The notes below the pieces were generated by a model, which did no database searches, was not told the DNA's origin, and saw only the letters and a program-made list of their open reading frames with translations. The translations under genes and the position numbers were made by a program. 64,000 bases of DNA from Streptomyces sp. NBC_01353 (GTDB lineage: Bacteria; Actinomycetota; Actinomycetes; Streptomycetales; Streptomycetaceae), in contig NZ_CP108352.1 of assembly GCF_036237275.1 (NCBI RefSeq), positions 1,922,001 to 1,986,000 on the forward strand, read 5' to 3'. Positions 14,964 through 40,901 of this stretch are shown here, in pieces. Positions within the stretch are counted from its first letter, which is position 1. Every line of letters begins with the position of its first letter.

Positions 14964-15019
14964 CTAGGGGGTGTCCGGCGGATCAGGGCCGCGGCCCTGA
15001 TCCGCCGGACACCCCCTAG
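14964..15019. repeat. CTAG-bounded palindromic element, family A, copy 1
   Basis: This is a perfect 56-bp palindrome: 27-bp arms starting CTAGGGGGTGTCCGGCGG around a GC centre. The right CTAG supplies the TAG stop of the yihY-like gene on the minus strand. It would also act as a bidirectional terminator between the two convergent genes. Confidence 0.9.
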
Positions 15020-16131
15020 TCCTTCTCCCAGCCCGAGTGCAGGCGCGACTTGACGTCGTCCGGCGGCAGGAACCGGGACCAGCGCTCGGGGAACTCCGAC
15101 GGCATGTCCGGGTCGTCCTCGTCCACGTCGTCCGCCTCCGCCCGCAGCCGGGCGACGAGGTCGGCGGCCTGGGCGGCACGGGCGCGGTCGCTGGCCTCGC
15201 GGGCCGCGGCGGTGGCGACCGAGGGCCAGACACGGTCGATCGCGGCGTTCACCGCCGCGCCGACGAGCACGGCGAAGGCCGAGATGCCGATCCAGAGCAG
15301 CACGGCGATGGGCGCGGCGAGGGAGCCGTAGATCGTGGGTCCCTCGACCTGGCTGGTCAGGTAGATCCGCAGCAGGAAGCTGCCGAGCACCCACATCCCG
15401 AGCGCCATCAGGGCGCCCGGGATGTCCTCGATCCATGGGGAGCGGACCGGGACGGACACGTGGTAAAGCGTCGTCAGGAAGGCGATGGAGAGCAGGATGA
15501 CGACCGGCCAGTAGAGCACGGCGACGACTTCCGTGCCCCACGGGATCAGCTCCACCATCCGGTCCGGGCCGACGACGGCGAGCGGCAGGACGACCGCGCC
15601 GATGAGCAGCGCCACGAGGTAGAGCAGGAAGGCGAGCAGCCGGGTCTTGACGATGCCGCGGTGCCCGTCGAGCCCGTACATCACGGTGATGGTGTCGATG
15701 AAGACGTTCACGGCGCGCGAGCCGGACCAGAGGGCGATGGCGAAGCCGAGCGAGATGAGTTCGGGGCGTTTGCCCTGGGTGACGTCGTCCAGGAGGGGTT
15801 TGGCGATGTCGCGTACGCCGCGGTCGGAGAGGACCGTTCCGGCGGCGCGGAGGATGTTCTCCTGGATGCTCGCGACGGTGTCGGTGTTGGTCCAGTCGTC
15901 GGCGTAGCCGAGGAGGGCGATCAGACCGAGCAGCAGCGGGGGAAGGGACAGGAGGGTGAAGAACGCCGCTTCGGCGGCGAGGCCGAGGATGCGGTACTCG
16001 ATGCACGAGTTGACGGTGTCCTTCAGGAGCAGCCAGACCATCTTCCGCTTGGAGACGTTGCGGTAGAGGACTCGCGCCCGGTGGAGTCTGCCCCCGGGCC
16101 GCCGCTCGGGTGTTTCGTTTGCTGCCTGCAC
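15016..16131 (-). CDS. YihY/BrkB-family inner membrane protein
   Basis: The 371-aa protein has six hydrophobic segments, including AFFTLLSLPPLLLGLIALLG, RLLAFLLYLVALLIGAVVL and IYGSLAAPIAVLLWIGISAF, and the GS/YG-rich core typical of YihY/UPF0761 membrane proteins. The acidic cytoplasmic tail ends in a basic stretch. GTG 16131 is the only plausible early start, but its AGGAGG lies directly against it with no spacing. The stop codon is inside a palindromic element. It is divergent from the AidB-like gene with 17 bp between the starts. Function is unknown; transporter or nuclease roles have been proposed for the family. Confidence 0.85.
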   Translation of the reverse strand: MQAANETPERRPGGRLHRARVLYRNVSKRKMVWLLLKDTVNSCIEYRILGLAAEAAFFTLLSLPPLLLGLIALLGYADDWTNTDTVASIQENILRAAGTVLSDRGVRDIAKPLLDDVTQGKRPELISLGFAIALWSGSRAVNVFIDTITVMYGLDGHRGIVKTRLLAFLLYLVALLIGAVVLPLAVVGPDRMVELIPWGTEVVAVLYWPVVILLSIAFLTTLYHVSVPVRSPWIEDIPGALMALGMWVLGSFLLRIYLTSQVEGPTIYGSLAAPIAVLLWIGISAFAVLVGAAVNAAIDRVWPSVATAAAREASDRARAAQAADLVARLRAEADDVDEDDPDMPSEFPERWSRFLPPDDVKSRLHSGWEKD

Positions 16132-16148
16132 CTCCTTACCGTATCGGC

Positions 16149-17786
16149 ATGGCAGCCAGCACCCACACAGTGACCAACCAGGCTCCGCCCCTGGTGGGAT
16201 ACGACGCGTACACGTCCGACCGGGCTCTGGCGGAGGCCGTCGAGCGCCATCTGGCGCCGGAGGTCTTCGCGGAAGCGCGCGAGGAGCTCGTAGCCCAGGG
16301 CCGGTCCGTCGGGTCGGCGCAGTCGCAGAAGTGGGGGGCCCTCGCGAACGAGAATCCACCGCTGCTGCGGACGCACGACCGGTACGGGAACCGGATCGAC
16401 GAGGTGGAGTTCCATCCGTCGTGGCACCGGCTCCTGGGGCGGTCGGTGGCTGCGGGTCTGACCGATGCCTGGGGCCGTCCGGGTGGTCATGTGCGGCGGG
16501 CGGCCGGGTTCATGCTCGCGACGCAGACCGAGGCGGGGCACGGCTGCCCGCTGTCGATGACCCATGCCGCGGTGCCCGCGCTGCGGACGGACCCCGCGCT
16601 CGCCGCCGTCTGGGAGCCGCTGCTGACCTCGCACGTGTACGAGGAGGGGCTGCGGCCGCCCGGCGAGAAGGCGGGGGTGCTCCTCGGGATGGGGATGACG
16701 GAGAAGCAGGGCGGCAGCGACGTACGGGCGAACACGACCGAGGCGCGGCCGCTGTCCGGGGCCGGCGAGTACGTGCTGACCGGGCACAAGTGGTTCTGCT
16801 CGGCGCCGATGTCGGACGGCTTCCTGGTCCTCGCCCAGGCTCCGGAAGGACTGAGCTGCTTTCTGGTACCGCGGGTCCTGGAGGACGGTACGCGCAACGC
16901 GTTCGCGATCCAGCGGCTCAAGGACAAGCTGGGGAACAGGTCGAACGCCTCCGCCGAGGTGGAGTTCGACGGGACGACCTGGGCGCGCAGGGTCGGGGAC
17001 GAGGGGCGCGGGGTCCGCACGATCATCGGGATGGTGGCGGCGACCCGGCTCGACTGTGTGCTGGGCTCGGCGGCGCTGATGCGGCAGGCGCTGACGCAGG
17101 CCGTGCACCACACCGCGTACCGGGGTGCGTTCGGCGGTCCGCTGATCGACAAGCCGCTGATGCGCAATGTGCTGGCCGATCTGGCGCTGGAGTCGGAGGC
17201 GGCGACGGTGCTCGGCATGCGGCTCGCGGCCGCGTACGACGCCGATACGGAGGCAGAACGCGCTTTCCTGCGGATCGCCGTGCCGGCGGCGAAGTACTGG
17301 GTGACGAAGCGGTGCGTGCCGACGGTGGCGGAGGCCCTGGAGTGCCTCGGCGGCAACGGCTATGTGGAGGAGTCGGGGATGCCGCGGCTGCTGCGTGAGT
17401 CGCCGCTGAACTCGATCTGGGAGGGCTCCGGCAATGTGCAGGCGCTGGATGTGCTGCGGGCGTTGCAGAGGGAGCCGATGGCGCTGAACGCGTTCCTGAC
17501 GGAGGTCGGCAAGGCTCGGGGCGCGGACCACCGGCTCGACGGGGCGATCAAGGGCATGCTCACCGAACTGGCCGATCTGGACGGGATCGAGGGGCGGGCC
17601 CGACGGCTCGCGGAACGGATGGTGCTGGTCCTGCAGGGTTCGCTGCTGGTGCGGTGGGCGCCGGCGGAGGTGGCGGACGCGTTCTGTGCCTCGCGGCTGG
17701 GCGGCGACCGGGGCTCGGCGTTCGGGACGCTGCCGACCACGCTGGATCTGCGGGCGGTGGTGGAGAGAGCGCGCGTGGAGGCCTGA
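16149..17786 (+). CDS. AidB-like acyl-CoA dehydrogenase
   Basis: The 545-aa protein has the AidB layout: a long N-terminal region, the flavin-binding motif MGMTEKQGGSDVRAN, the segment LTGHKWFCSAPMSDGFLVLA, and C-terminal CLGGNGYVEESGMPRLLRE with SIWEGSGNV. AidB proteins are flavoproteins of the acyl-CoA dehydrogenase family that bind DNA and are linked to alkylation resistance in enterobacteria. The same window has an Ada-type protein, but 15 kb away with no shared operon. The start is ATG 16149. Confidence 0.88.
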   Translation: MAASTHTVTNQAPPLVGYDAYTSDRALAEAVERHLAPEVFAEAREELVAQGRSVGSAQSQKWGALANENPPLLRTHDRYGNRIDEVEFHPSWHRLLGRSVAAGLTDAWGRPGGHVRRAAGFMLATQTEAGHGCPLSMTHAAVPALRTDPALAAVWEPLLTSHVYEEGLRPPGEKAGVLLGMGMTEKQGGSDVRANTTEARPLSGAGEYVLTGHKWFCSAPMSDGFLVLAQAPEGLSCFLVPRVLEDGTRNAFAIQRLKDKLGNRSNASAEVEFDGTTWARRVGDEGRGVRTIIGMVAATRLDCVLGSAALMRQALTQAVHHTAYRGAFGGPLIDKPLMRNVLADLALESEAATVLGMRLAAAYDADTEAERAFLRIAVPAAKYWVTKRCVPTVAEALECLGGNGYVEESGMPRLLRESPLNSIWEGSGNVQALDVLRALQREPMALNAFLTEVGKARGADHRLDGAIKGMLTELADLDGIEGRARRLAERMVLVLQGSLLVRWAPAEVADAFCASRLGGDRGSAFGTLPTTLDLRAVVERARVEA

Positions 17787-17879
17787 GCCCTCGGGCGCAC
17801 GCCCCCGGCGCACGCGAGTAAAGCTGAGCCGCGCGCGCCAGGGGTGGACCCGGAAAGGGTCGGCACGGGCGGAAAAGCC

Positions 17880-17913
17880 GAGGGTGGTGCTGCGCCGACA
17901 CGGCACCACCCTC
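17880..17913. terminator. Hairpin after the AidB-like gene
   Basis: GAGGGTGGTGC (17880-17890) and GCACCACCCTC (17903-17913) form a perfect 11-bp stem with a 12-nt loop. It is about 95 nt after the acyl-CoA dehydrogenase stop and 170 nt before the GAF regulator. The rest of 17787-18079 shows no gene. Confidence 0.55.
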
Positions 17914-18079
17914 CGCTCGCACCACCCTCGTGTACGAGAGCGGTTGCGGCCAGAGTTGCAAAGGGTTGCAGGATTACACGAAACACGCTCTGCCGGACGG
18001 CACGGAGCGGCACGATGGGCACCACGACCCGGGAACGCGGCAGAACCGGTACAGCACTGCGGGTGGCTGGGAGAGACCG

Positions 18080-19390
18080 ATGAAGAACACTCAGCTGAAC
18101 AACACTCGGCTCGACATGAAGCGACTGGCCGCCATGGACGCCGCCCAGGCGACCCGGCTGCTGCACCGGGTCCGGGAGGAGACGCTGGCCGGCCGCAGGC
18201 CGCCGATCGCGCCCCGCCCGGTCATCGACGCCTCCTGGCAGCGGATGTTCCGGCTCGGTCTCGACCCGGACCGGACCACGAGCAGTGTCCTCCTCCAGCG
18301 CGACGAGCTGGAGGAGCGGCGGCGGTCGACGGTGCTCGGCGAAGTGATGCGCACGCTGAGCACCGGGCTCGCGGGGATCGCGGACGCCTCCATGCAGATC
18401 ATGGTGGTCACCGACGAGCAGGGCCGGGTGCTGTGGCGGGAGGGCAACGCCTCGGTGCTGCGGCAGGCCAACGGGATCTGCCTGGAGGAGGGCGCGGCCT
18501 GGACCGAGAACACCACCGGCACGAACGCGGTGGGGACGGCGCTGGCGATGCGTCGGGCGGTCCAGGTCCACTCGGCCGAGCACTACGTCCAGACCCTCCA
18601 CAACTGGACCTGCGCCGCGGCGCCGGTCCACGATCCGCGCGACCAGCGACTGTTGGGGATCGTGGACGTGAGCGGTCCGGCGTCCAGCTTCCATCCGGCG
18701 ACGCTGGCGCTGGTCGGCTCGGTGGCACAGCTCGCCGAGGCGGAGATGCGCGACCGCCATCTGCGGTCGATCGAGCGGCTGCGCTCGGTGGCCGCGCCGA
18801 TCCTGTGCCGGGTGGGCGGCCGCGCGGTCGCGGTGGACACGCACGGCTGGACGGCGGCGGTGACCGGGATGGCGCCGGTGGACCGGCTCGCGCTGCCGAA
18901 GTCCTTCCGCGCGGGGCGCACCTGGCTGCCGTCGCTGGGGATGTGCGCGGTGGAGCCCCTGCCGGGCGGCTGGCTGCTGCGGGTCGAGGAGGAGACCCGG
19001 GCGGCGGCCTCGGACGCGCGGGCGGCGAGCCGGGTGGTCCTCGATCTGAGCCGGCCGCGCCGCTGGACGGTGGCGGTGTCGGGGGCGGCGGGCAGCTGGA
19101 CGCAGGAGCTGAGCCCGCGCCATGCCGAGCTGCTGTACGTCCTGGCCCTGCACCGCGACGGGCGGACGGCGGCGGAGCTGGCCGAGGACGTGTTCGGCGA
19201 CCGGACGAGGACGGTGACGGTAAGGGCGGAGATGTCACGGGTCCGCCGCAACCTGGCGAGCGTGCTCGCCCACCGCCCGTACCGCTTCAGCGAGGAGGTG
19301 GAGGTCGAGATCGTCCCCCCGGCCCACCCGGCCGACCTCCTCCCCCACTCGACGGCCCCGGTGGTCCGGGCCTCCCGCACGGGGCCGTGA
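18080..19390 (+). CDS. GAF-domain transcriptional regulator (AcoR-like N-terminus, no sigma-54 domain)
   Basis: The 436-aa protein starts with R-P-x-I-x-x-S-W-x-R-(x)n-G-L-D-P, the signature shared by AcoR-type activators. A GAF sensor domain follows (about 60-230; WTENTTGTNAVGTAL). The C-terminal helical segment (LSPRHAELLYVLALHRDG then EDVFGDRTRTVTVRAEMSRVRR) looks like a winged-helix DNA-binding domain. The sigma-54 AAA+ domain is absent, as usual in Streptomyces. Homologues often control alcohol or aldehyde oxidation genes, but none lies next to it here. ATG 18080 follows GGGAGAGACCG. Confidence 0.8.
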   Translation: MKNTQLNNTRLDMKRLAAMDAAQATRLLHRVREETLAGRRPPIAPRPVIDASWQRMFRLGLDPDRTTSSVLLQRDELEERRRSTVLGEVMRTLSTGLAGIADASMQIMVVTDEQGRVLWREGNASVLRQANGICLEEGAAWTENTTGTNAVGTALAMRRAVQVHSAEHYVQTLHNWTCAAAPVHDPRDQRLLGIVDVSGPASSFHPATLALVGSVAQLAEAEMRDRHLRSIERLRSVAAPILCRVGGRAVAVDTHGWTAAVTGMAPVDRLALPKSFRAGRTWLPSLGMCAVEPLPGGWLLRVEEETRAAASDARAASRVVLDLSRPRRWTVAVSGAAGSWTQELSPRHAELLYVLALHRDGRTAAELAEDVFGDRTRTVTVRAEMSRVRRNLASVLAHRPYRFSEEVEVEIVPPAHPADLLPHSTAPVVRASRTGP

Positions 19391-19424
19391 CGACCCGGGC
19401 GTGAGGGCTCCCGCTCCGCGGTGA

Positions 19425-19738
19425 GCCGCGTCGGACCGCCGTGGCGAGTTCCTCCGCCCGGGGCGGATTCGCCCCGGGCACGGCGCAGGTGGCCGCCGCG
19501 ACCGTCGTGCCGTGCGACGGCCTCGTCCAGGGTCTTCCGTTCGAGGGTGTCGAGGCGACCGCCGAGCGCGCCGGTCTCGTGGAGGCGGTGGAGCAGGCCG
19601 GCGGTGAAGGCGTCGCCCGCGCCGACGGTGTCGACGACGTCGATCTACGGATCCGGGTGGCGGCTGCGGACGCCGTCGTACGAGACGAGGGCGCCAGGCC
19701 CGCCGGGGGTGACCGCGACGAGCGGGACGCCGGCCCGG
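19425..19738 (-). pseudogene. 3' remnant of a PfkB/ribokinase-family sugar kinase
   Basis: Read leftwards from 19738, the sequence gives VPLVAVTPGGPGALVSYDG, an in-frame TAG, then IDVVDTVGAGDAFTAGLLHRL, the anion-hole motif of PfkB sugar kinases. After a frameshift comes VAAATCAVPGANPP, the usual C-terminal segment. The N-terminal two-thirds is missing. A stop, a frameshift and a 5' truncation together make this a dead gene. It abuts a LacI remnant pointing the other way. Confidence 0.8.
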
Positions 19739-19740
19739 TG

Positions 19741-19957
19741 GCGGGGACACGCTTCGACGACCTGCCGCTCGCCGCGGTCCTGGGGCCCGGCCTGACGGTC
19801 GTGGCCCAGGACCCGGCGGCGGTCGGCCGCGCGGCGGCGGAGCAGATCCTGGCCCGCCTGGGCGGTGACCGCTCCCCGCGCGGTGACCCACACGGTCCCG
19901 GTCGCCCTGATCGAGCGCGGCTCGGGCGTGCTGCCGCCGCCCCGCACGGCCCGCTGA
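19741..19957 (+). pseudogene. 3' remnant of a LacI-family sugar regulator
   Basis: The frame gives DDLPLAAVLGPGLTVVAQDP and AAVGRAAAEQILARLGGDRS, the effector-domain end of a LacI-type repressor. After a frameshift near 19877 it continues as VTHTVPVALIERGSGV to TGA 19957. The DNA-binding domain and most of the effector domain are absent. It is back to back with the kinase remnant, as if one deletion removed both 5' halves and their shared promoter. Confidence 0.78.
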
Positions 19958-20027
19958 GGCCCGGTCGGGGCGTCCCACCGGACGGACCCCTGTGGGATCC
20001 GCGCGCTCCGCATGATGCGATGGACGT

Positions 20028-20597
20028 ATGAGCATCACTCTCACCACCTGGTCCCTCGAGCAGACCGCGCCGTCCGACCTCCGTCCCTCCCCCGCCCCCG
20101 AGGGCGACGAGGTGACGATCAAGCGGGCCGAGGTGCCCTCGCCCGAGTACAGCCGCTTCCTCTATACGGCGGTCGGTGGCGACATCCGCTGGAACGATCG
20201 GCTGTCGCTCACGTACAAGCAGTGGCTGGAGATCGTCGAGAAGCCGGGGGCCGAGATCTGGGTCGCGTACGACCGGGGCACGCCGGCCGGATACGTCGAG
20301 CTCGACCCGCAGGACGACGGCGTCGTCGAGATCGTCTACTTCGGACTGGTCCCGGCCTTCCGCGGGCGCCGGATCGGCGGCCATCTGCTCTCGTACGGCG
20401 TCCGGCGCGCCTGGGACCTGGCCGACCGCTGGCCGGGCCGCGAGGAGACGCGCCGCGTGTGGCTCCACACCTGCTCGCTGGACGGACCGCACGCGATGGA
20501 CAACTACCTGCGGCGGGGCTTCCGGCTCTTCGACACCAAGGTGGAGGAGGTCGAGGAGTCCGAGACGCCCGGCCCCTGGCCCGGCGCGCACGCCTGA
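20028..20597 (+). CDS. GNAT-family N-acetyltransferase
   Basis: The 189-aa protein shows the GNAT acetyl-CoA-binding core: IVYFGLVPAFRGRRIGGHLLSYGV, with the R-x-x-x-I-G-G loop in the Q/RxxGxG/A position, and a C-terminal DNYLRRGFRLFDT strand. The acceptor is unknown. It lies just before the sulfur-assimilation leader region but has its own frame and a 116-nt gap, so it is probably independent. Confidence 0.85.
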   Translation: MSITLTTWSLEQTAPSDLRPSPAPEGDEVTIKRAEVPSPEYSRFLYTAVGGDIRWNDRLSLTYKQWLEIVEKPGAEIWVAYDRGTPAGYVELDPQDDGVVEIVYFGLVPAFRGRRIGGHLLSYGVRRAWDLADRWPGREETRRVWLHTCSLDGPHAMDNYLRRGFRLFDTKVEEVEESETPGPWPGAHA

Positions 20598-20713
20598 CCC
20601 CTCCTCACCTCCCGAAAGTGACCCACGGCACACCGTCTCGCGATGCGGGACGGTCGTGTCCACATTTCGGACGAAGCTGGACTGGGTCCAAAGTCCCGTG
20701 ACACGCTTCCGTC

Positions 20714-20797
20714 ATGTCTGGAACTGGAATTGCCTTGGTGAGTCGGCGGCACGTCGACCTCGGCCGCATGTCCAGCGCCATGTGTCCGGTGCGCTGA
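20714..20797 (+). CDS. 27-aa leader peptide upstream of the sulfite reductase operon
   Basis: ATG 20714 opens a 27-codon frame starting MSGTGIALVSRRHVDL and ending Met-Cys-Pro-Val-Arg-stop. Tiny ORFs of exactly this type precede sulfur-assimilation genes in many Streptomyces and are annotated as putative leader peptides. The single Cys codon four positions from the stop fits ribosome stalling on low charged tRNA-Cys. About 126 nt and a hairpin separate it from the reductase start. The attenuation mechanism is an inference from related actinobacterial cysteine attenuators. Confidence 0.8.
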   Translation: MSGTGIALVSRRHVDLGRMSSAMCPVR

Positions 20798-20860
20798 GAG
20801 AACCAGCACCGCCGCGATCTCCCTTTCTGACCCACCTGCTGCGCACCGTCGCGCCATCCC

Positions 20861-20888
20861 CTGACCTGAGCACGAGTGTGCAGGTCAG
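20861..20888 (+). promoter_or_regulatory. Hairpin between leader peptide and sulfite reductase
   Basis: CTGACCTG (20861-20868) pairs with CAGGTCAG (20881-20888), and CAC/GTG can extend the stem inside. It is downstream of the leader stop and upstream of the GAAGGA ribosome-binding sequence of the reductase. It may be the switching element of an attenuator. Confidence 0.45.
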
Positions 20889-29375: not shown

Positions 29376-30152
29376 ATGAGCGCCCCTGTCCTCCTCGTCA
29401 TCGCCCACGGCAGCCGCGATCCGCGGCACGCGGCGACCGTGCACGCGCTGGTGCGCCGTGCCCGGGCGCTGCGGCCCGAGCTGCGCGTGGAGACGGCGTT
29501 CCTGGACTTCAACCTGCCGTCGGTGTCGGGGGTCCTGGACCGGCTCGCTGCCGACGGGATACGGGACGTGGTGGCCCTGCCGCTGCTGCTGACCCGGGCC
29601 TTCCACGCGAAGGCCGACATCCCCGCCGTACTGCGCCAGGCCCCTCCCGCCCTGCGGATCCGCCGCGCGGAGGTGCTCGGCCCGTCGCCGCTGCTGATCG
29701 CGGCGGTGGAGCGACGGCTGTACGAGGCCGGGCTGACCCCCGGCGACAAGAGCGCGACCGGGGTCGTCCTGGCCTCGGCGGGCTCCACGGACCCGGAGGC
29801 GATCGCAGCGATCGCAGAAACGGCGCGGGAGCTGCGGCGCACCGGTTGGTGCTCCGTGCGGCCTGCGTTCGCCTCCGCATCACTCCCACGGACCGAGGAC
29901 GCCGTCCGCGCCCTGCGCGCCGACGGCGTGCGCCGCGTGGCGGTAGCCCCGTACGTCATCGCCCCCGGCCGGCTGCCGGACCGCATCGCGGCGGGCGCGG
30001 CGGAGGCCGACCACCTGGCGGACGTCCTCGGCCCGTCCCCGGAGCTGGCCCGGCTGCTGATCGAACGGTACGAGCAGCGCTGCGCGTCGGCGGCCGGCGA
30101 ACTGCCGGGCGCACTCCGGGCGGAGAGCCTCACGGCGCAGGCGGCGGGCTAG
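29376..30152 (+). CDS. Sirohydrochlorin chelatase-like protein (CbiX/SirB family)
   Basis: The 258-aa protein has two tandem chelatase half domains. The first has VIAHGSRDPRHAATV with the metal-binding His, followed by LPLLLTRAFHAKADIP. In the second half the usual HG is replaced (VVLASAGSTDPEA), so one active site may be lost. The family inserts Fe(II) or Co(II) into sirohydrochlorin. Here the iron product, siroheme, serves the sulfite reductase of the same operon. Its TAG stop lies in a CTAG bordering a repeat element. Confidence 0.87.
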   Translation: MSAPVLLVIAHGSRDPRHAATVHALVRRARALRPELRVETAFLDFNLPSVSGVLDRLAADGIRDVVALPLLLTRAFHAKADIPAVLRQAPPALRIRRAEVLGPSPLLIAAVERRLYEAGLTPGDKSATGVVLASAGSTDPEAIAAIAETARELRRTGWCSVRPAFASASLPRTEDAVRALRADGVRRVAVAPYVIAPGRLPDRIAAGAAEADHLADVLGPSPELARLLIERYEQRCASAAGELPGALRAESLTAQAAG

Positions 30153-30314
30153 GGCCTCTCGTTTGGATCTTGCCGGGCCCGCGTGCCCTGGTGCCGCACC
30201 TCGCCGCGTCGTCGTCGGTCGGCATGGCTCCGCCATGCCTCCCTCCTCCGCCTTGCGATCCACGGCACCAGACCCCGCTCACCGATCCGGCCTGATCCAA
30301 ACGAAAGACCCTAG
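30149..30314. repeat. CTAG-bounded MITE-like element, family B
   Basis: The element has imperfect terminal inverted repeats CTAGGGCCTCTCGTTTGGATC and GATCCAAACGAAAGACCCTAG. Internal nested arms TGGTGCCG/CGGCACCA and a central GGCATGG-CTCCG-CCATGCC hairpin mean the whole piece can fold into one long cruciform. There is no ORF. The left CTAG gives the TAG stop of the chelatase gene. The right CTAG is shared with a family A copy. Confidence 0.85.
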
Positions 30315-30371
30315 GGGGCGTCCGGCGGATCACGCCGCAGCCCCGGCCATGATCCGCCGGACCACCCCTAG
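30311..30371. repeat. CTAG-bounded palindromic element, family A, copy 2
   Basis: The 61-bp piece has arms CTAGGGGGCGTCCGGCGGAT and, inverted, CTAGGGGTGGTCCGGCGGAT. They are nearly complementary around a GC-rich centre. The right CTAG supplies the TAG stop of the serine hydrolase on the minus strand. It sits back to back with the family B element. Confidence 0.87.
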
Positions 30372-31609
30372 CGCCCGTCCGACCGCACTCCCCGGTCCGG
30401 GGCGCACAGCGCCCGGTCGTCGAGCGTCGCCAGTGCGTCGTCGATGGGGTGGTGCTGCGGGGTCCCCGAGGCGTCCACTGCGTTCCACCTCTGGAGGTTG
30501 ACCGCGAAGGACATCTGGCGGGCGCCGTCGGCCCGGGTCCAGGAGGCCGTTCCGGCGCCCCAGACCGTGCCGTCGTGGCCCCAGAAGGTGCCGCATCCCG
30601 GGATGTCGAGCCTGTGCAGACCGAGTCCGTACTGGATCATCGATCCGTCCAGGGCGACGACCGGGATCGTGCGCTGCATCTCCGTCAGCGACGACCGGCT
30701 GACGACCGCGCCGTCGAGGAGCTTGCCGTAGAAGCGGTTGAGATCCGGCATGGTCGACACCAGCGCGGCTCCCGTCCCGGTCCAGGACATGTCGTAGACG
30801 CTGTAGTCGCGCGGCGGGTCGAGCGCGCCCCACAGGGCCTCGTACATCCGCGAATGTGGTCCCTTGATGCGCGGCCCGGTCGGGAACCCGGTGTGCCGGA
30901 GCCCGGCGCGCTCGATGACGTTCCGGGTGATGTACTCCTCGGCCGCGGTGCCGGTCACCCGCTCCAGGAGTTGGCCGAGCAGCAGGTAGTTGGTGTTCGA
31001 GTACACCCCGACCGGGCCTCCGGGCTCGCCGGTCGGAGGCGCGTCGAGCCCCAGCTTGATCAGCTCGGCGGAGTGGAACCGCCGGAACCGGTTGTCGTCC
31101 AGGCTCTTGGACGAGACGTCAGGGATTCCCTGGAGGGATGGGAACGCGTAGCGGATGTAGTCGGGGATGCCGCTGGTGTTGTTCAGCAGCATCCGTACCG
31201 TGATCTTCCTGCCGCGCTCTCCCGGCACCAGATGCGGCAGATGGTCGCCGATCGGCGCATCGAGCCGGATCCGGCCCTGCTCCACCTGCTGCATGACCGC
31301 GGCGGCGGTGAAGGTCTTGGTGATGCTGCCGACGCGGTGCCGCATGTCGGGCGTGACGGGGCGTCCGGTCCTGACATCGGCGACCCCGGAGGCGCCTCGC
31401 CATGTCCTGCCGGCATCGCGCACCTCGGCGTACACACCCGGTACCCCTGCCCGGTGGACACCGTCCAGGGCGGACCTCAGCTCCGCCCGATCGAAGCCGG
31501 TCGACGGCACCGTCCCTGTCTCGTGGGTCGGCGCGGGGGCTGCCGCGACCGTGCCGGCACCCACGCTCAGCGCGATCACGCTCGCGCACAACACCATGCG
31601 GATCTTCAA
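30368..31609 (-). CDS. Secreted serine hydrolase, beta-lactamase/D-Ala-D-Ala carboxypeptidase family
   Basis: The 413-aa protein has a signal peptide (MKIRM then VLCASVIALSVGAGTVAAA) and the three class C beta-lactamase motifs: SxxK in GSITKTF, YSN in VGVYSNTNYLL, and HDG in WGHDGTVWG. These enzymes hydrolyse peptidoglycan stem peptides or esters outside the membrane. A TTG start at 31609 is preferred because AAGGA lies 8 nt upstream; ATG 31597 would have 20 nt spacing. The stop codon is in a palindromic element. The esterase gene lies 43 nt upstream in the same direction. Confidence 0.88.
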   Translation of the reverse strand: MKIRMVLCASVIALSVGAGTVAAAPAPTHETGTVPSTGFDRAELRSALDGVHRAGVPGVYAEVRDAGRTWRGASGVADVRTGRPVTPDMRHRVGSITKTFTAAAVMQQVEQGRIRLDAPIGDHLPHLVPGERGRKITVRMLLNNTSGIPDYIRYAFPSLQGIPDVSSKSLDDNRFRRFHSAELIKLGLDAPPTGEPGGPVGVYSNTNYLLLGQLLERVTGTAAEEYITRNVIERAGLRHTGFPTGPRIKGPHSRMYEALWGALDPPRDYSVYDMSWTGTGAALVSTMPDLNRFYGKLLDGAVVSRSSLTEMQRTIPVVALDGSMIQYGLGLHRLDIPGCGTFWGHDGTVWGAGTASWTRADGARQMSFAVNLQRWNAVDASGTPQHHPIDDALATLDDRALCAPDRGVRSDGR

Positions 31610-33691: not shown

Positions 33692-33705
33692 CGTACCGGC
33701 GTTCG

Positions 33706-36700
33706 TCAGTTGGGGGACAGCAGCGCGGGCAGGGCGAAGGCGGGACTCCGGTCGGTTGTCGGGGCGGTGAGACGGGCATGCACGCGCTGCCAGGCGTCGG
33801 TGTCGTGCCCGAGTCGCTCGGCCACGAGCAGCGTGACCTCCGTCAGGGCGACGTGCACGTCCTCGGGCGCGTCCGAGCGGCGGCGGGCTCGGTTCAGGTA
33901 GCTCAGCACGACGGCTGCCGGGGCGGCCAGGTGGACGAGATCGCGGCCGGTCAGCTGTCCGGTCGTCAGCAGACTGTCCAGGAGGGCGTCCACCGGACTT
34001 CGGTAGTGCCCTTCGACGCCGTGCCGGGCGCGTGCCACGGTCAGCTCCGGGCCCAACGGCCTGTCGACCGACAGCCCGTGGAGGTGCGCGGCGTTGCGAA
34101 GTCTGAAGGCGTGCGGGGCGGTGGGGTGGCGGGCGATGTGCTCCCATGCGGGGATGGGGTCCTCGGCGTGCTCGGCCTCCAGGGCGTCCCAGGACAGGGG
34201 GCCCGGGATGGTGTCGAGGATCTCCCGGGTCTGCCAGTGCGCCCGCGCCCGGCGCAGCCGTTTCGCGAGGCGGGCCGGCGCCAGTTCCTTTCCGGCCCGG
34301 GCGGCGAGAGGTGCGGCGGGGTCGTCGGTGGCCAGGGCCTTCTGGCAGAGGCGGGTGGCGGTGGCGCCGAGCCGTCCGCTCTCCGTCAGCGCGGTCAGCC
34401 GCCGACGTCCGCCGTGGCGCAGGAGGTTGAGGCTTCCCACGAGTTGCTGGGCCAGGGTGAGGTGCTTGCCCGCCCTGGCGAAGACGAGCTCGATGAGTTC
34501 CGGTTCGGCCGACTCGAGCCATGCCGTACGGCTGCCGGGGAGTTCGGCGAGGGGGTCGGCATGCAGATCGGCGGCGAGCCGCGTTGTCAGTGTGCCCGGG
34601 CGGGCGGCGATGCGTCGGCACACGGCGAGGTCGCCGTGGGAACGCAGCACGGCCAGGTCCACCTCGGGGTCGGCGAGGTCGAGACGCCGGTGCAGGGCGG
34701 TGTCGTCGAGCCACCGGGACTGCTCCGAGAGAACGTTCAGCGCCCCTCGGTCACGGTGGTGGAGCAGGTATGCGAGCGGGGTGCGGTCGGTCGGGGTGGA
34801 CCGCAGGAGGAAGGCGGCGAGCATCCACGGGCCGTCGGCGCCGAGGCGAGACATCACCGAGGCGAGCGCGTCGGGCCGTGCCTCGCGCAGCAGGGTGCCC
34901 AGCGGCCACACCCACAGATGATTGCCACGAGCGAGGAGGTTCACCGCCATCTCGGGTGAGGTGGGCGGTTCCGTTGTGGAGAGCCTGGAGGTCAGGCCGA
35001 TGGCGGTCCGCGCCTCTTCGAGGGGGTCGGCTTCGGTGGGGGCGGTGTCGAGGCGCGACCGGGCGAGCAGTTCGGGCCACGTGACCGCGGGACGCCGGCC
35101 GGGGCCCTCGTCGTCCGCCGCCGCCATCGACCGCCGTGCGGCAGCGGCGAGCCGCAGCCAGGCGTCCGCGTCGGTCCCGAGCTCGCGCTCCAGGAACGCC
35201 GCGAGGGAGCGCCGCCACGCGGTGATGAAGGCCAGGTCCTTCCAGTCGTGGGGTACGAGCAGCAGGTGGGCGGCCGGTAGATGGTGCAGCAGATCGTCGG
35301 CATGCACGATGCCGTGCAGATAGGCCCGTTCGGCGATGCGGGCGAGAGAACCGAGCTCGGACGTCTCCTCGATCCGGGCGAGCACGTCCGCGCGCGCGGG
35401 GGCGTCGCACCGGTGCGCCAGGTCGTTCAGCCCTCGCCGGAGGCACGCCTCGCGCAGCCAGTCCGGATGCCGCCGACCGGGCACGTCGTCCACGTCATGC
35501 GCCGACAGGCGCCGCAGGACCGCCAGGTCGTCCGGAAGCGGGGCGGCACCGGGCGCGGCCAGCGAACGCAGCAGATCGATCGCACCGAGTGCGGCGCGCT
35601 CCCGCTCCCCTACGGGGGCAGGCGCGGGCCCCTCGTCCACGCCCGCGCTCGCCACGGGGGCGGCGCGGACGGCGGGGGACGCGTCGCTGTCGGGTGCGGC
35701 AGCCCCGCGCTCCCCGACGGACCCTTGGCCGGACCACTCCTCCACACCCGCGCTCGCCACGGGGGCGGCGCGGACGGCGGGGGACGCGTCGCTGTCGGGT
35801 GCGGCAGCCCCGCGCTCCCCGACGGACCCCTGGCCGGACCACTCCTCCACGCCCGCCCCCGCCACAGGGGCGGCGCGGACGGCGGGGGCTGTGTCGGAAG
35901 CCGCGTCCTCGCGCGCGTCCGCGCTGCTCGGCGCCGGCCGATCGTTCCTCGAAGCCTCGTCGTCCGCAGCTCCCGCATCCCGGATGGCCTCGTTCACCGG
36001 GCCCGGGTGAGTGGAGAGGTTCCGCAGCAGCGCCTCCTCGGCGAGCGGCCCGGTCGCGAGATGCTCCCGGTACAGCGCCGCGAGCCTGTCGCAGGCCGCT
36101 CCCACCTCCAAGCCCCGCTCGGCCACGGCGTGGAGGGCCGCCAGGGCGCGGGCTGCCGGCCGGGCCAGGGTGACCAGCTCCACCGGGTCGAGAAGTCCTG
36201 CCGCCACCATGCCGACGGCCCAGTCCGAGGCCGTGTCGTCCAGTTCTTCCTCGGCCAGGCGCCGGGACGGCCCCGTGAGGTTGCCGGCGATGCGCCCACC
36301 GGCCCGCCACGGTTCGTTGAGCAGGGTCAGCTGGAGCTCCGCGCGCTCGGCGTCCGTGGCGTCCTCGTGGCGGATCAGCTCCTCCGCCGCCTTCGGCATG
36401 AAGGGAGTCGTCCGGTTGGCCGAAGCCAGTGCGCGGAAGTCGTGGGTGTACGGCTCGTTGAGCAGGTCACGCAAGGTGCTGGTGCCACGGCTGACGCCGA
36501 GGAGCCGGGGCAGCGTGGCCGGGTCCTCGTACGGTTCGCCCGCGGCGCGCAGCCGGGCGGCGGAGTCCGGCGCGTCGAGCGCGGCGGCGACCTCGGCCCG
36601 GATCTCCGGGTGCACGTGCGCAACGACGGCCGGGTCGGCGAGCATGGCACGGACGGCGTCGGCGCCCCGGCACTCCAGGACCCGCAGGAGGGCGTGGCGC

Positions 36701-37524
36701 TGCGCCACTTTGCGTACCCCCCAGGCCAGCGCCTGGGCGGCCAGCGGCGGATCCCCGCTGCCCAGCAGCGGTGCCGTGCGGCTGCGCGAGGCCGCGCCGG
36801 CCGACGAGAGCAGCTCCTCCCTGAGCGTGTCCTCCAGGAGGACGCGGCCCTGTGCGTGCGCGTCGACGACCGCGCGGCGCAGGGACGGGGTGCAGCGGTT
36901 GTTGCGGTAGACGGCCGCGCTCACCATCGGGTCCTCCGCGGCCAGCAGCTGCTTGAGGGCTCTCGCGTCGATCCGTGGGTGCCGGGCCAGCGCGGTGCGT
37001 GTCCGGCTGTCGCCGTGCAGGGCCACGGCGGAGGTCAGTGACGGGCCGGGCAGGGACCCGCCCGCGAGCATCGTCTCCACCGTCCGGTCGGGCAGCGCGA
37101 CGAGCGCGTCTGCGGCACCTTCGGGGGCCGCCTGCTCCAGGAGCAGGGCCAGCGTGTCGCAGACCGACTTCGGCGGCAGCCGGTCGGCGCCCTCGGCCTG
37201 CTCGGGCAGGTCGGCGAGCAGCTCCGGCAGTGTGCGGGGAGACGTGGCGAGGGCGTCATGGAGTCGGCGCCAACGCGCTGGGGACCCTGCGAGATGACGC
37301 TCCGTCAACTCGCGGAGCAGCACGGCAGCGTCACTCGCCGGCGGAAGCGTTCCGACGAGGTGCCGTGCGAGGGTGCGGGCGGGGCGTGTCGACCGCACCA
37401 AGGCGACGGCGAGGCCCTCGTCGTGCTCGCCCGGGACGACCTTGTCCTCGCCGGGCAGGCCTCGGCCGAGCAACTCGACGATCGGACGGCGCAGTCCGGC
37501 CGGCCTCGTGGACGTACGGGACAT
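33706..37524 (-). CDS. 1272-aa alpha-helical-repeat protein of unknown function
   Basis: No catalytic motif is recognised. The chain is rich in Leu, Ala, Arg and Asp, with helical-repeat stretches like leucine-rich-repeat-variant units: RHPRIDARALKQLLAAEDPM, then VYRNNRCTPSLRRAVV, and LRSHGDLAVCRRIAARPGTL. A low-complexity Ala/Pro/Gly linker near residues 540-630 contains three 35-aa tandem repeats. No signal peptide or membrane helix is seen. ATG 37524 has a clear GGAGGGAGAGCG upstream. It stands alone, opposite to its left neighbour and upstream of a palindromic element. It may be a scaffold or a binding protein. Confidence 0.75.
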   Translation of the reverse strand: MSRTSTRPAGLRRPIVELLGRGLPGEDKVVPGEHDEGLAVALVRSTRPARTLARHLVGTLPPASDAAVLLRELTERHLAGSPARWRRLHDALATSPRTLPELLADLPEQAEGADRLPPKSVCDTLALLLEQAAPEGAADALVALPDRTVETMLAGGSLPGPSLTSAVALHGDSRTRTALARHPRIDARALKQLLAAEDPMVSAAVYRNNRCTPSLRRAVVDAHAQGRVLLEDTLREELLSSAGAASRSRTAPLLGSGDPPLAAQALAWGVRKVAQRHALLRVLECRGADAVRAMLADPAVVAHVHPEIRAEVAAALDAPDSAARLRAAGEPYEDPATLPRLLGVSRGTSTLRDLLNEPYTHDFRALASANRTTPFMPKAAEELIRHEDATDAERAELQLTLLNEPWRAGGRIAGNLTGPSRRLAEEELDDTASDWAVGMVAAGLLDPVELVTLARPAARALAALHAVAERGLEVGAACDRLAALYREHLATGPLAEEALLRNLSTHPGPVNEAIRDAGAADDEASRNDRPAPSSADAREDAASDTAPAVRAAPVAGAGVEEWSGQGSVGERGAAAPDSDASPAVRAAPVASAGVEEWSGQGSVGERGAAAPDSDASPAVRAAPVASAGVDEGPAPAPVGERERAALGAIDLLRSLAAPGAAPLPDDLAVLRRLSAHDVDDVPGRRHPDWLREACLRRGLNDLAHRCDAPARADVLARIEETSELGSLARIAERAYLHGIVHADDLLHHLPAAHLLLVPHDWKDLAFITAWRRSLAAFLERELGTDADAWLRLAAAARRSMAAADDEGPGRRPAVTWPELLARSRLDTAPTEADPLEEARTAIGLTSRLSTTEPPTSPEMAVNLLARGNHLWVWPLGTLLREARPDALASVMSRLGADGPWMLAAFLLRSTPTDRTPLAYLLHHRDRGALNVLSEQSRWLDDTALHRRLDLADPEVDLAVLRSHGDLAVCRRIAARPGTLTTRLAADLHADPLAELPGSRTAWLESAEPELIELVFARAGKHLTLAQQLVGSLNLLRHGGRRRLTALTESGRLGATATRLCQKALATDDPAAPLAARAGKELAPARLAKRLRRARAHWQTREILDTIPGPLSWDALEAEHAEDPIPAWEHIARHPTAPHAFRLRNAAHLHGLSVDRPLGPELTVARARHGVEGHYRSPVDALLDSLLTTGQLTGRDLVHLAAPAAVVLSYLNRARRRSDAPEDVHVALTEVTLLVAERLGHDTDAWQRVHARLTAPTTDRSPAFALPALLSPN
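35635..35895. repeat. 105-bp in-frame tandem repeat inside the 1272-aa gene
   Basis: Marker GCCAC positions at 35655, 35760 and 35865 show an exact 105-bp period. Two full copies and partial flanking copies are nearly identical, with a few substitutions. Each unit encodes 35 residues, including AVRAAPVASAGVEEW and GQGSVGERGAAAPDSD. The near identity points to recent duplication. Confidence 0.9.
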
Positions 37525-37611
37525 CGCTCTCCCTCCCCCGTTCGATCATGTGTCGGGCGACGAGGAGCATTCCAGCATGCGGCACTGACAACGCCGCGCG
37601 GCCTGCGAGTC

Positions 37612-37845
37612 CTAGGGGGTGTCCGGTGGATCAGGGTCGGATAGGACGCGGCGGCTGGTGCATGGGGTCTCCCCAGGCCCCCTGGGCCTAGGGACGCATC
37701 GCCAGGCGCCGGAGCGCCCTGATAGCGGAGCTATTGGGGCGTTTCGGCAACGCGGCGTGGGGGCACCTCCCGTGCCCGAAGGGCTACGGGGGAGTGCCGT
37801 GCCAGGCGCCGTGGCCCCGGCCATGGTCCGCCGGACACCCCCTAG
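37612..37845. mobile_element. 234-bp MITE-like element with family A ends (copy 3)
   Basis: It is bounded by CTAG on both sides. The terminal inverted repeats CTAGGGGGTGTCCGG match family A copy 1. The interior has no convincing gene and holds several short inverted repeats (for example around 37667-37692 and 37745-37805). The right CTAG supplies the TAG stop of the maleylpyruvate-isomerase-like gene. This looks like the full-length form whose ends make up the short copies. Confidence 0.8.
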
Positions 37846-38414
37846 CCCCTGGGGTCCCGGCCGCTGGTCGCGAGGGCGCGGGCGAAGGCCGGGGCGGTGT
37901 CCCGTACCTCGAAGGGCTCGGCGAAGCCGTCGTACTGGCGGTAGGTCTCGGCGTGTTCCTCGACGACCCCGAGCAGGAAACGCCCCGTCGCCTCCGGGAC
38001 GGTGAAGTCCTGACCGGTGGAGCGGGCCAGGTCCCAGCCGTGCAGGGCGAGTTCCTTGACGAGCAGCGAGGCGATGACCGTCGCCGGCATGGCCACGTAG
38101 CCGGTGTCCACCTCGCCCTGCCAGACGTCCGGCTTCTCCCAGGCCGCGAGCGCGCGGTCGAGCTGGGCCGCGTACCGCTCCGCCCAGTCGGCGTCGGACG
38201 TGAAGTCCCGCTGGACGGTCTCCTCGGGGAGTTGCTTGCGCAGGGCGCGGTGCTCCAGGCCGTGGGCGGAGTAGAGGACGAGGTGGTTGACCAGCTCGCG
38301 GACGGTCCAGTCGGCACAGACGGACGGCTGAGCGAGCTGGTCGGCGGTGACACCGCGGGCGACGCGGGCGGCCTCGGCGGCGGCGACGGTGAGGTGCGTG
38401 TGGATGTCGTTCAT
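37842..38414 (-). CDS. TIGR03086-type maleylpyruvate isomerase family protein (DinB-like, mycothiol-linked)
   Basis: The 190-aa protein has the DinB/MDMPI four-helix pattern: DWTVRELVNHLVLYSAHGLEH and VKELALHGWDLARSTGQ, with metal-binding His residues. Family members are metal-dependent and often use mycothiol. The substrate is not known. ATG 38414 is the start, since upstream in-frame sequence is not conserved-looking. Its stop codon is inside the MITE-like element. The next gene upstream is a mycothiol-type DsbA-fold reductase. Confidence 0.83.
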   Translation of the reverse strand: MNDIHTHLTVAAAEAARVARGVTADQLAQPSVCADWTVRELVNHLVLYSAHGLEHRALRKQLPEETVQRDFTSDADWAERYAAQLDRALAAWEKPDVWQGEVDTGYVAMPATVIASLLVKELALHGWDLARSTGQDFTVPEATGRFLLGVVEEHAETYRQYDGFAEPFEVRDTAPAFARALATSGRDPRG

Positions 38415-38475
38415 GCCACCGAGGCTAGGACGGGTCGCTGCCCCCGCTCTTGAAGAATTGCGACAGCCGGCGCGC

Positions 38476-39099
38476 TCAGCTGAAGTCGAGTCCGCCCGTC
38501 CGGGTCCGCTTGATCTCGAAGAGGTCGGAGTGGCCGGCGAGCACCCGGAAGCCGTCGAAGAGCTCGGCCGCCTTCGGGCCGCGCGGGACGGCCCGCAGGA
38601 CCGGCCCGAACCAGACCGTGCCGTCGACATGGATGGTCGGCGTGCCGACGTAGCCGTCCGCCTCCGGGTCCTTGCCGGCGTCGTGGCTGCGGCGGACCGC
38701 CTCGTCGTAGGTGTCGTCGTGCGCGGCCTCGGCGAGCTCGGCCGGCAAGCCGACCTCCGCCAGGGACTCGGCGATCACCGCGTCGAAGTCCTTCTGCTTC
38801 TCCTGATGGATGCGGGTGCCGTACGCGGTGTAGAGCGGGCGCAGGACCTCGTCACCGTGCTTCTCGGCCGCCGCGGCCGCCACCCGCACCGGGCCGATCG
38901 ACTTGTCGACGAGTTCCCGGTACCAGTCGGGCAGCTCGTTGCCGACGTTGTGGAAGTACAGGCTCATCACCCGGAAGCGCAGCTCGATGTCCCGGTGCTG
39001 TTCGACCTCCAGCATCCAGCGGGAGGAGATCCAGGCGAAGGGGCACGCGGGGTCGAAGTAGAAGTCGACGACGGTCCTGGGCTGCGTTTCGGTGGTCAT
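38476..39099 (-). CDS. DsbA-fold mycothiol-dependent reductase (Rv2466c-like)
   Basis: The 207-aa protein begins [19 protein letters not shown]. The active site CPFA has one Cys and no resolving Cys, as in mycobacterial Rv2466c, a mycothiol-dependent nitroreductase. The all-helical insert and the cis-Pro loop GTPTIHV complete the thioredoxin fold. No signal peptide is present, so it is cytoplasmic. It is divergent from the aldo/keto reductase gene. The start region lacks a clear ribosome-binding sequence. Confidence 0.87.
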
Positions 39100-39202
39100 G
39101 GCAGGAGCCTAGCCAGCAGGCGGCCGCCGGTGGCGGTCCATTCACGACTCCGTCAACTGGGCCACTTCCGGCGGCCGTCCATGATTGTTGTAGCGTCCAC
39201 CC

Positions 39203-40072
39203 ATGGTCTCGGAGACGTACACGCTGGGCGGCGATCTTCCCGTACGGCGGCTCGGTTACGGCACGGCTCAGCTCACCGGCCCCGGCTACTGGGGGCCGCG
39301 CGGCGAGCGGGCGGACGCGGTCGCCGTCCTGCGGCGGGCCGTGGAGCGGGGCGTCACGCTGATCGACACCGCCGACAACTACGGTCCCGGCCTCGCCGAG
39401 GAGCTGGTCGCGGAGGCGCTGCACCCCTACCGGGACGAGCTGGTGATCGCGACCAAGGGCGGGGTCGTACGGACCGGTGACAGCACCTGGCACATCGAGG
39501 GGCGGCCGGAGCGGTTGCGCGCGATGTGCGAGGCGAGCCTGCGGCGGCTGCGGACGGACCGGATCGACCTCTACCAGCTGCACCGGCTCGACCCGCGGGT
39601 GCCGATGGCGGAGCAGCTCGGCGCGCTCGACGAGCTGCGCGCGGAGGGGAAGATCCGGCACATCGGCCTGGACTCGGTGACCGCGGAGCAGCTGACGCGG
39701 GCGCTGACCCTGACGCCCTCGATCGTCTCGGTGCAGAACCGCTTCAACCTCCTCGACCGGGAGTCGGCGGCGGTGCTGAAGGTGTGCGAGGCACACGGCC
39801 TGGCGTTCCTGCCGTGGTTCCCGCTGGCCAACGGCGCGCTGACCGTTGATGCCGCGGCCACGCTGGACACGGTGGCGGGCCGGCTCGGGGCGAGCCGGGG
39901 GCAGACCGCGCTGGCCTGGCTGCTGCACCACTCCCCCGCGCTGCTGCCGACGCCCGGCACCGGTTCGCTCGCACACCTGGAGGAGAACCTGGACGCCGCC
40001 GCACTCCGGCTCGACGCGTCCGAGGTCTCCGTCCTGGACGCGCTCACCCCAAACCCTGTCAACCATGGTTGA
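39203..40072 (+). CDS. Aldo/keto reductase
   Basis: The 289-aa TIM-barrel NADPH oxidoreductase has the catalytic set LIDTADNYGPG (Asp, Tyr), ATKGG (Lys) and YQLHRLD (His), and the nucleotide-binding VTAEQL / LPTPGTGSLAHLEEN segments. It is close to YajO/YhdN-like general reductases, whose substrate cannot be told from sequence. The stop codon lies inside an 18-bp operator-like palindrome of the next operon. Confidence 0.88.
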   Translation: MVSETYTLGGDLPVRRLGYGTAQLTGPGYWGPRGERADAVAVLRRAVERGVTLIDTADNYGPGLAEELVAEALHPYRDELVIATKGGVVRTGDSTWHIEGRPERLRAMCEASLRRLRTDRIDLYQLHRLDPRVPMAEQLGALDELRAEGKIRHIGLDSVTAEQLTRALTLTPSIVSVQNRFNLLDRESAAVLKVCEAHGLAFLPWFPLANGALTVDAAATLDTVAGRLGASRGQTALAWLLHHSPALLPTPGTGSLAHLEENLDAAALRLDASEVSVLDALTPNPVNHG

Positions 40073-40101
40073 CACGAGGGTGGTGTCAACGTAAGTTGAC
40101 A
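40057..40101 (+). promoter_or_regulatory. Consensus promoter with twin 18-bp operators; leaderless start predicted
   Basis: Two inverted repeats share arms TGTCAAC/GTTGACA: a perfect one at 40057-40074 (TGTCAACCATGGTTGACA) and one with a GTAA centre at 40084-40101. Their centres are 27 bp apart. A perfect -35 TTGACA (40069-40074) and a -10 TAAGTT (40092-40097) are spaced 17 bp, putting the transcript start at about the ATG 40104. Operator 1 covers the -35 and operator 2 the -10, so a bound repressor would block the promoter. The HTH protein just downstream is the obvious candidate. Confidence 0.85.
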
Positions 40102-40103
40102 GC

Positions 40104-40313
40104 ATGACCGATGCAACCGATCTCGCCGAGCGGGCGGGTGATCGCGACCCCCGGGTCGGGCTCCGCGCCGTCTCCGCACTGAGGCGGCTCCTCGAACAGC
40201 TGGAGGCCGTTCAGGTACGCAGCGCCCGCGCCCAGGGCTGGTCGTGGCAGGAGATCGCCGCGGAGCTGGGCGTGAGCCGTCAGGCCGTCCACAAGAAGCA
40301 CGGGAGGCATTGA
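40104..40313 (+). CDS. Small helix-turn-helix protein, probable autoregulator
   Basis: The 69-aa protein has a C-terminal HTH, QGWSWQEIAAELGVSRQAVHKKH, after a helical dimerisation-like segment. The HTH is of the sigma-region-4/Fis-like kind. The stop overlaps the ATG of the ClpN-domain gene (TGATG), so both are made together. Twin operators cover the promoter directly upstream, which suggests the pair is autoregulated in response to protein damage or a related stress. Confidence 0.85.
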   Translation: MTDATDLAERAGDRDPRVGLRAVSALRRLLEQLEAVQVRSARAQGWSWQEIAAELGVSRQAVHKKHGRH

Positions 40314-40852
40314 TGTTCGAACGGTTCACGAAGGGGGCCCGGGCGGTGGTGAAGGGGGCGGTGGTCCAGGCCGAACGCCAGGGCGCCCCCGTGGTCACCG
40401 AGGAGCACCTGCTGCTCGCGCTTCTCGACGCGGAAGGCACCAAGGCGTCCTTCGCCCTGCGGGCCCTGGGTGTGACGGATCGGCGGGAGTCGCTGGAGGC
40501 TGCGCTCACGGACGCGCGTCGCCGAGGCGGGCTGTCCAAGGCGGACACGGACGCGCTGGCCGGACTCGGAATCGATGTGACCGAGATCGTCGCCCGGGTC
40601 GAGGAGACGCACGGCCCGGGCGCGCTCGCCGACGACCGTGACGAGCGGGTCCGTCGCTCCGGGCACCGGCCCTTCACCAGCGAGGCGAAGGGTGTTCTGG
40701 AGCGGTCCCTGCGCGTCTGTCTCGGGCGCCGCGAAAAGGCGATCGGTGACGAGCATCTGCTCCTCGCGCTCACGGCCCGCCCCGGTGTCGTCGCCGAGAC
40801 CCTGGCGGACCACGGCGTCACCTACGCCACGGTGGAACGGGCCCTCGGCTAG
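40313..40852 (+). CDS. Clp N-domain (double) protein
   Basis: The 179-aa protein contains two Clp-N repeats with TEEHLLLALLDAEGTKASFALRALGV and GDEHLLLALTARPGVVAETLADHGV, as found at the N-terminus of ClpA/ClpC unfoldases. No AAA+ domain follows. Stand-alone Clp-N proteins may act as adaptors or decoys for Clp proteases. It is coupled to the HTH gene. The TAG stop is part of a CTAG that starts a palindromic element remnant. Confidence 0.88.
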   Translation: MFERFTKGARAVVKGAVVQAERQGAPVVTEEHLLLALLDAEGTKASFALRALGVTDRRESLEAALTDARRRGGLSKADTDALAGLGIDVTEIVARVEETHGPGALADDRDERVRRSGHRPFTSEAKGVLERSLRVCLGRREKAIGDEHLLLALTARPGVVAETLADHGVTYATVERALG

Positions 40853-40901
40853 GGCCTGATCCGCCGGACAGGCCCCAGGAGAGCCGCCCTGTCCGGCGAT
40901 C
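40849..40901. repeat. Family A palindromic element remnant (copy 4), hairpin
   Basis: CTAG at 40849-40852 is followed by GGGCCTGATCCGCCGGACAGG, matching the inner part of family A. GCCGGACAGG (40863-40872) pairs perfectly with CCTGTCCGGC (40888-40897). It acts at least as a terminator for the HTH-ClpN operon. The next gene's coding-like sequence starts right after it. Confidence 0.75.

Follow-up and report, generated by a model that had tools for sequence, protein, structure and literature searches.

Why do short palindromic elements in a Streptomyces genome begin and end exactly where neighbouring genes stop? The question arises from a 64,000-nt stretch of Streptomyces sp. NBC_01353 (contig NZ_CP108352.1, positions 1,922,001–1,986,000; hereafter the window), in which direct sequence reading finds four palindromic elements, each with CTAG at both ends, and the remnant of another, that meet the 3′ ends of five genes. 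Our analysis indicates that the association probably arises from three causes acting together: a plain four-base CTAG target, the scarcity of CTAG outside stop codons, and survivorship. In this 8.57-Mb genome (about 71% GC in the stretches examined), 14 of 15 independent element sites fall on a TAG stop, and gene orientation mostly explains the excess.

The elements and adjoining genes are as follows; five-digit coordinates are counted in the window and longer ones on the genome contig.

14964–15019, no strand: putative family A miniature inverted-repeat transposable element (MITE), 56 bp, a perfect 28+28 palindrome bounded by CTAG; the BrkB/YihY gene has its TAG stop in the right CTAG (15016–15019).
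15016–16041, minus strand: BrkB/YihY membrane protein gene (PF03631), ending ...GACTAG.
29376–30152, plus strand: CbiX-type chelatase gene (PF01903), ending ...GGCTAG, where the CTAG is the left boundary of the family B element.
30149–30314, no strand: MITE-like element of family B, 166 bp; the genome has five copies, with 162–166 of 166 bases identical.
30311–30371, no strand: putative family A MITE, 61 bp, forming a tandem with the family B element, the CTAG at 30311 being common to both; the serine hydrolase gene has its stop in the right CTAG.
30368–31579, minus strand: serine hydrolase gene (PF00144), ending ...CGCTAG.
37612–37845, no strand: family A element, 234 bp, with MITE ends and a long internal hairpin fold; arms of 29 nt, 86% complementary; its right CTAG contains the stop of the MDMPI gene.
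37842–38414, minus strand: maleylpyruvate-isomerase-type gene (TIGR03086, MDMPI_N), ending ...GGCTAG.
40313–40852, plus strand: Clp_N-domain gene (Pfam Clp_N), ending ...GGCTAG.
40849–40878, no strand: family A remnant, CTAGGGCC joined to a right-end arm; CCAG on the outer side, CTAG retained on the stop side.

A sequence-only reading of the window had proposed that such elements target CTAG at stop codons, keep the stop by target duplication and thereby become ready-made terminators. Direct reading bears out its premise: all five named genes end in NNC-TAG, their TAG forming part of a bounding CTAG (5/5), and the outer edges at 14964 and 37612 coincide with no stop. Its element coordinates also hold, except at the far end of the remnant, which had been placed at 40901 and is convincing for 40849–40878 only; no inverted pair of at least 12 nt was found in 40830–40930. 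Genes here and in other genomes were called with our own codon-usage caller, trained on the host genome, and some calls will be wrong.

Family A varies in length, is more decayed than family B, and shares its ends with an insertion sequence (IS) elsewhere on the contig.

7546410–7547366: IS5-family IS, 957 bp, CTAG on both sides, with an IS5 transposase in two overlapping open reading frames (ORFs) (NF033580, above cut-off on both ORFs; PF13340; PF01609).

The 61-bp family A copy matches an end of this IS over 24 nt at 100%, and the 234-bp copy over 34 nt at 88%. From these terminal inverted repeats, common with a transposase-bearing element, family A would be a set of MITEs of an IS5-type IS. 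The right CTAG of the IS is itself the stop of a DinB_2 gene. A second CTAG-bounded element (358067–359669, 1603 bp; L095:4068–5670) matches the IS at 79.5% over 942 nt. It has perfect 18-bp ends and carries an IS5 transposase region with a passenger gene of mycothiol-S-transferase/DinB type (PF04978). Genes of DinB/MDMPI type thus recur around these elements: one lies beside the 957-bp IS (7547363–7547983), one beside the 234-bp element (37842–38414) and one within the 1603-bp element. As Streptomyces commonly carries genes of this type, the recurrence is possibly due to chance.

Family B comprises five 166-bp copies in the genome, which are near-identical and therefore recent. Its parent was not found in the host genome: the arm pattern, with up to three mismatches, returned only three lone arms besides the five copies, and none of 38 own-genome transposase loci carried a family B arm pair (single weak matches occurred in three); this parent search covered the host genome. 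The proposal that the elements are MITEs is thus borne out for family A by the ends in common with the IS, whereas family B shared its terminal inverted repeats with no transposase-bearing element of the host genome and is better termed MITE-like. Across both families, CTAG stands on both sides in 14 of 17 own-genome arm pairs.

For two of the five family B copies, one CTAG is common with an adjoining family A copy (at 1952311, which is window position 30311, and at 7898169). The second of these tandems (7898007–7898222) has the architecture of window 30149–30371, with convergent genes that stop at its two outer edges; its family A part is a weak pair. At 6227612–6227741, two left arms are nested, the outer bounded by a GTAG at which a called gene stops, and the inner by CTAG. 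In the draft genome G028 (loci L189, L191, L194 and others), nine of 24 family B arm matches lie less than 70 bases or so from the start of a contig, which suggests that family B copies break its assembly.

Genome-wide copies show the excess at TAG stops that the earlier reading had named as its check. In the stretches of the host genome examined, a TAG stop lies in an edge of 15 of 16 two-ended elements shorter than 300 bp, or 14 of 15 independent sites when the tandem at 1952149 is counted once, as against 78 of 214 CTAGs (36%) outside two-ended elements (Fisher P = 1.5e-5; many tests were made, and P values are uncorrected throughout). All five family B copies are at a stop. These counts cover the matches listed by the arm search, which include part of the places with two mismatches. 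Pairs longer than 400 bp and the weak pairs 4666551–4666597 and 7898169–7898222 (11/18 matches; both touch stops) are excluded; the latter enters the double-stop count alone, as the outer edge of its tandem.

Beyond the host, family B arms are present in 13 of 150 genus members, the host included, and 19 of 24 outside sites touch a stop (25 loci read out of 41 places). Family A, with at least 117 loci in the genome collection, gave among the matches listed a stop at 25 of 41 two-ended elements shorter than 400 bp (five of them at both edges) and at 39 of 74 one-ended ones, besides two longer two-ended elements; other CTAGs in the same loci were stops in 47 of 180 cases (26%). With own and outside data pooled and gaps limited to 800 bp, 39 of 54 element sites were at stops vs. 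120 of 330 in the background (P = 1e-6). Element sites were found by patterns that start with CTAG and are biased to copies that retain it.

How much of this excess does CTAG itself supply? The host background consisted of 55 regularly spaced 20-kb stretches (1.1 Mb), in which the one-ended edges of decayed elements remain. Its 214 CTAGs comprise 78 stops, 115 intergenic sites and only 21 sites within called genes, with a coding share of about 86% of sequence (measured over 300 kb). In convergent gaps of up to 800 bp, 40 background CTAGs were stops vs. 3 non-stops; 20 further non-stop convergent CTAGs lie in gaps longer than 800 bp, where missed genes are likely. Elements are shifted strongly toward such gaps, with 25 convergent and 4 divergent placements vs. 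72 and 79 in the background (P = 1.6e-4), the own-genome element counts in this test being entered by hand. Among the 16 two-ended elements of the host, 11 lie between convergent genes and five between codirectional ones.

Within an orientation class, the excess shrinks. In convergent gaps of up to 800 bp, 25 of 25 elements and 61 of 72 background CTAGs were at a stop (P = 0.06); in codirectional gaps the figures were 11/20 and 53/119 (P = 0.47). We therefore attribute the stop excess mostly to gene orientation, with a plain CTAG target and loss of harmful insertions, and allow for a possible small true stop preference within convergent gaps.

Survivorship also contributes. An arm pattern with the four flanking bases left open (first base not G) was run in 41 genomes, and 20 of about 70 sites outside the host genome were taken in listing order. 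A gene stop lay exactly at an edge in 9 of these 20, vs. 120 of 330 in the background (P = 0.48). Eight places were skipped—one the partner of a distant arm, one TTAG/CTTG, the rest with chance-like flanks—and counting them as non-stops gives 9/28 (P = 0.84). In the 20 loci, CTAG persisted at 8 of 10 stop edges vs. 4 of 24 non-stop edges (P = 0.0009; a hand count in which some partner arms are weak, 13/18), and the two remaining stop edges still carry TAG. The stop-side CTAG is retained and the other decays, and for that reason a CTAG-bounded search enriches for copies at stop CTAGs.

One-ended loci agree with this pattern of decay. Among the matches listed from the genome collection, 34 have a good second arm, with a stop at the CTAG edge in 17 and a TAG stop at the other edge in five more; these five edges lack CTAG and hold a TAG preceded by T or G. 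Single-sided outward flanks were CTGG in 11 cases, CTAA in seven and CCAG in three, with no outward TTAG against the seven CTAA. The CTAA flanks suggest YTAR as the target, with TA (2 bp) duplicated; the TAG edges preceded by T or G fit synonymous drift as well.

The account that we consider probable runs as follows. Non-autonomous, MITE-type relatives of an IS5-type IS would insert into the palindrome CTAG, duplicating 4 bp or the central TA, with the IS transposase presumably mobilising them in trans and the host deriving no benefit. In the coding DNA of this 71% GC genome, CTAG is rare save as NNC-TAG stops, and in short convergent gaps nearly every CTAG is a stop. Insertions within genes, promoter regions and operons would mostly be lost, whereas those at convergent gene ends would be harmless because each neighbour retains a CTAG and hence its TAG stop. 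Later, the stop CTAG would stay intact and its unused counterpart would decay, in many cases to CCAG or CTGG, sharpening the association. Every insertion would also yield two CTAGs as new targets, which would account for family B and family A tandems that share one. Direct support for parts of this account comes from the ends that family A has in common with the IS, from CTAG at the boundaries, from one empty site, from the shift in orientation and from the edge decay.

The empty site belongs to a 169-bp element (2339394–2339562) flanked by two convergent genes, each with its stop in one of the element's edges. Two of eight relatives, G098 and G006, lack the element, and there both genes' stops lie in one shared CTAG; in the other six, the two genes end otherwise or stand apart. 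Together with the CTAG-bounded 957-bp IS, this site upholds the earlier suggestion that CTAG is a target of IS5-type elements. It also upholds the idea that stops are kept through target duplication: one CTAG serves both genes when the site is empty, and each has its own when it is filled.

Several observations weigh against the account. The arm-found sample is small (20 of about 70 sites, with eight earlier-listed places left out), and the own-genome copies are extreme (14/15 sites; family B 5/5). Without the 800-bp filter, the convergent comparison becomes 25/26 vs. 67/98 (P = 0.002), and outside loci alone give 15/15 vs. 21/29 in filtered convergent gaps (P = 0.04). CTAGs that serve as a stop on both strands make up 8 of 39 element sites vs. 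5 of 133 in the background (P = 0.002; the entry for 7898169–7898222 was made by hand), and a plain CTAG target yields no clear prediction of them. Relatives, moreover, mostly lack the expected CTAG at four other sites. At the yihY site, six of 15 relatives share the end position, and all six use TGA (CTGA in five, GTGA in one); the isomerase gene (37842–38414) ends in GTAG in two relatives; at the family B site 4655425, four of eight relatives carry GTAG, one CTAG and three TGA; and site 3184143 is GTAG in G098. An ancestral CTAG would thus have to be supposed at yihY and the three other sites. The empty-site comparison proposed by the earlier reading accordingly succeeds at the 2339394 locus and is less clear, in part adverse, at these four sites. 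In G098, the stop is not CTAG for four of six element-free CTAG-stop genes, compared with six of seven element sites (three further genes had no match); since element-free CTAG stops also differ there, stop turnover is quick, too quick for a verdict from relatives that are about 90% identical.

The alternative that survives best, though we judge it unlikely, is selection for termination: copies at convergent ends would be retained since their hairpins end the transcription of both neighbours, position and hairpin being positively selected. The predicted folds are indeed very stable, at −62.2 (the 56-bp palindrome, 14964–15019; z −12.8), −46.8, −86.3 and −181.3 kcal/mol for the four window elements (z −7.8 to −12.8), which gives all four the stable GC-rich hairpin of an intrinsic terminator, and the 11 of 16 own two-ended elements between convergent genes are placed as would suit bidirectional termination. 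Tolerance alone, however, also predicts convergent placement; arm differences among the host's copies show no compensated change by eye; and the remnant at 40849 scarcely beats its shuffles (z −2.1). No T-run terminator was found in 29900–30600, the one stretch scanned, other copies being inspected by eye only. Streptomyces terminators often lack a T-run, and the putative terminator function of the elements is plausible.

Less probable still is true targeting, in which a termination context, translational or transcriptional, makes CTAG a preferred site of the transposase or of some host factor. The high stop counts speak for it (14/15 own sites; 19/24 family B sites outside; 25/41 two-ended family A sites elsewhere, among the matches listed), as do the residual convergent-gap excess (P = 0.06 to 0.002) and the excess of double-stop CTAGs. 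Against these stand the codirectional gaps without excess (P = 0.47), the arm-found sites near background (9/20 vs. 120/330, P = 0.48), four elements between divergent genes in other species, and a CTAG-based search that favours retained stop-side CTAGs. The flanks of 39 element sites, compared with 78 background stops, gave no clear motif, two of 20 positions lying near P = 0.05. On the orientation breakdown and the arm-found sample we set stop-specific targeting aside as the main cause; of the claim that the elements target CTAG at stop codons, insertion at CTAG stands and the stop specificity is weakly supported.

That the element makes the stop, a gene acquiring its TAG from the element end by extension, truncation or conversion, is very improbable. 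The TGA of yihY relatives, the predominance of GTAG at three sites and the over-representation of double stops would suit it, but stop positions are unchanged in six relatives at yihY, in two at the isomerase gene, in six of eight at 4655425 and in one at 3184143, which rules against truncation or extension to the element edge at the four comparable sites. Furthermore, one site has an element-free double-stop CTAG in two relatives, and element-free CTAG stops also differ in G098 (4/6, vs. 6/7 at element sites). Chelatase gene tails are too variable in relatives for this comparison, and no serine hydrolase counterpart was found in five syntenic stretches of relatives. That the elements are immobile 3′-end hairpins, alike through shared function, fits their location at gene 3′ ends but is next to impossible given five 166-bp copies with 162–166 identical bases, arms common with a transposase-bearing element and an empty site in relatives.

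The preferred account—a plain CTAG target filtered by CTAG scarcity and survivorship—illustrates how a 4-bp target can mimic an elaborate stop-codon preference through codon usage, gene orientation and survivorship, and it offers an example of two overlapping genes that were split while both retained a stop. Annotators of Streptomyces gene ends and those seeking terminators will meet these hairpins. More tentatively, and at somewhat less than even chances, gene 3′ ends in high-GC bacteria may be a refuge for CTAG-targeting transposons: codon usage would confine CTAG largely to stops and intergenic DNA, duplication would restore stops, overlapping convergent genes would be split with a stop each, and every insertion would provide two CTAGs, so that bidirectional hairpins gradually accumulate at 3′ ends and could later be recruited as terminators. 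A literature search found, among the titles and abstract openings listed, no report of elements on stop-codon CTAGs; most subscription journals lay outside its coverage, and the result is no proof of novelty.

Known systems share individual features with these elements. ISMysh01 of Mycobacterium shottsii is likewise an actinobacterial IS5-type element with 4-bp CTAG direct repeats, but it is autonomous with one ORF, whereas the window copies are MITE-like and their related IS has two overlapping ORFs (PMC9241763). In the IS427 group of Paracoccus (IS5 family; 832–865 bp there), some members similarly have two overlapping ORFs with a frameshift motif, short inverted repeats and 2- or 4-bp repeats; that host belongs to another phylum, CTAG is absent from the main text of the paper, and the group name applies to the host IS by analogy only (PMC3281130). 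Haloquadratum MITEs, served by transposase in trans, are also short, transposase-free and flanked by target duplications, with IS-like inverted repeats as in family A; the host elements differ in a target that coincides with stop codons and in a very short full palindrome of 56 bp (PMC3119063). Four-base tail-to-tail gene overlaps (CTAA, TTAA, CTAG, TTAG) form a recognised class, to which the empty site of the 2339394 element belongs; unlike a plain overlap, that one has been split by an insertion, and both genes retain their stop (PMC2174442).

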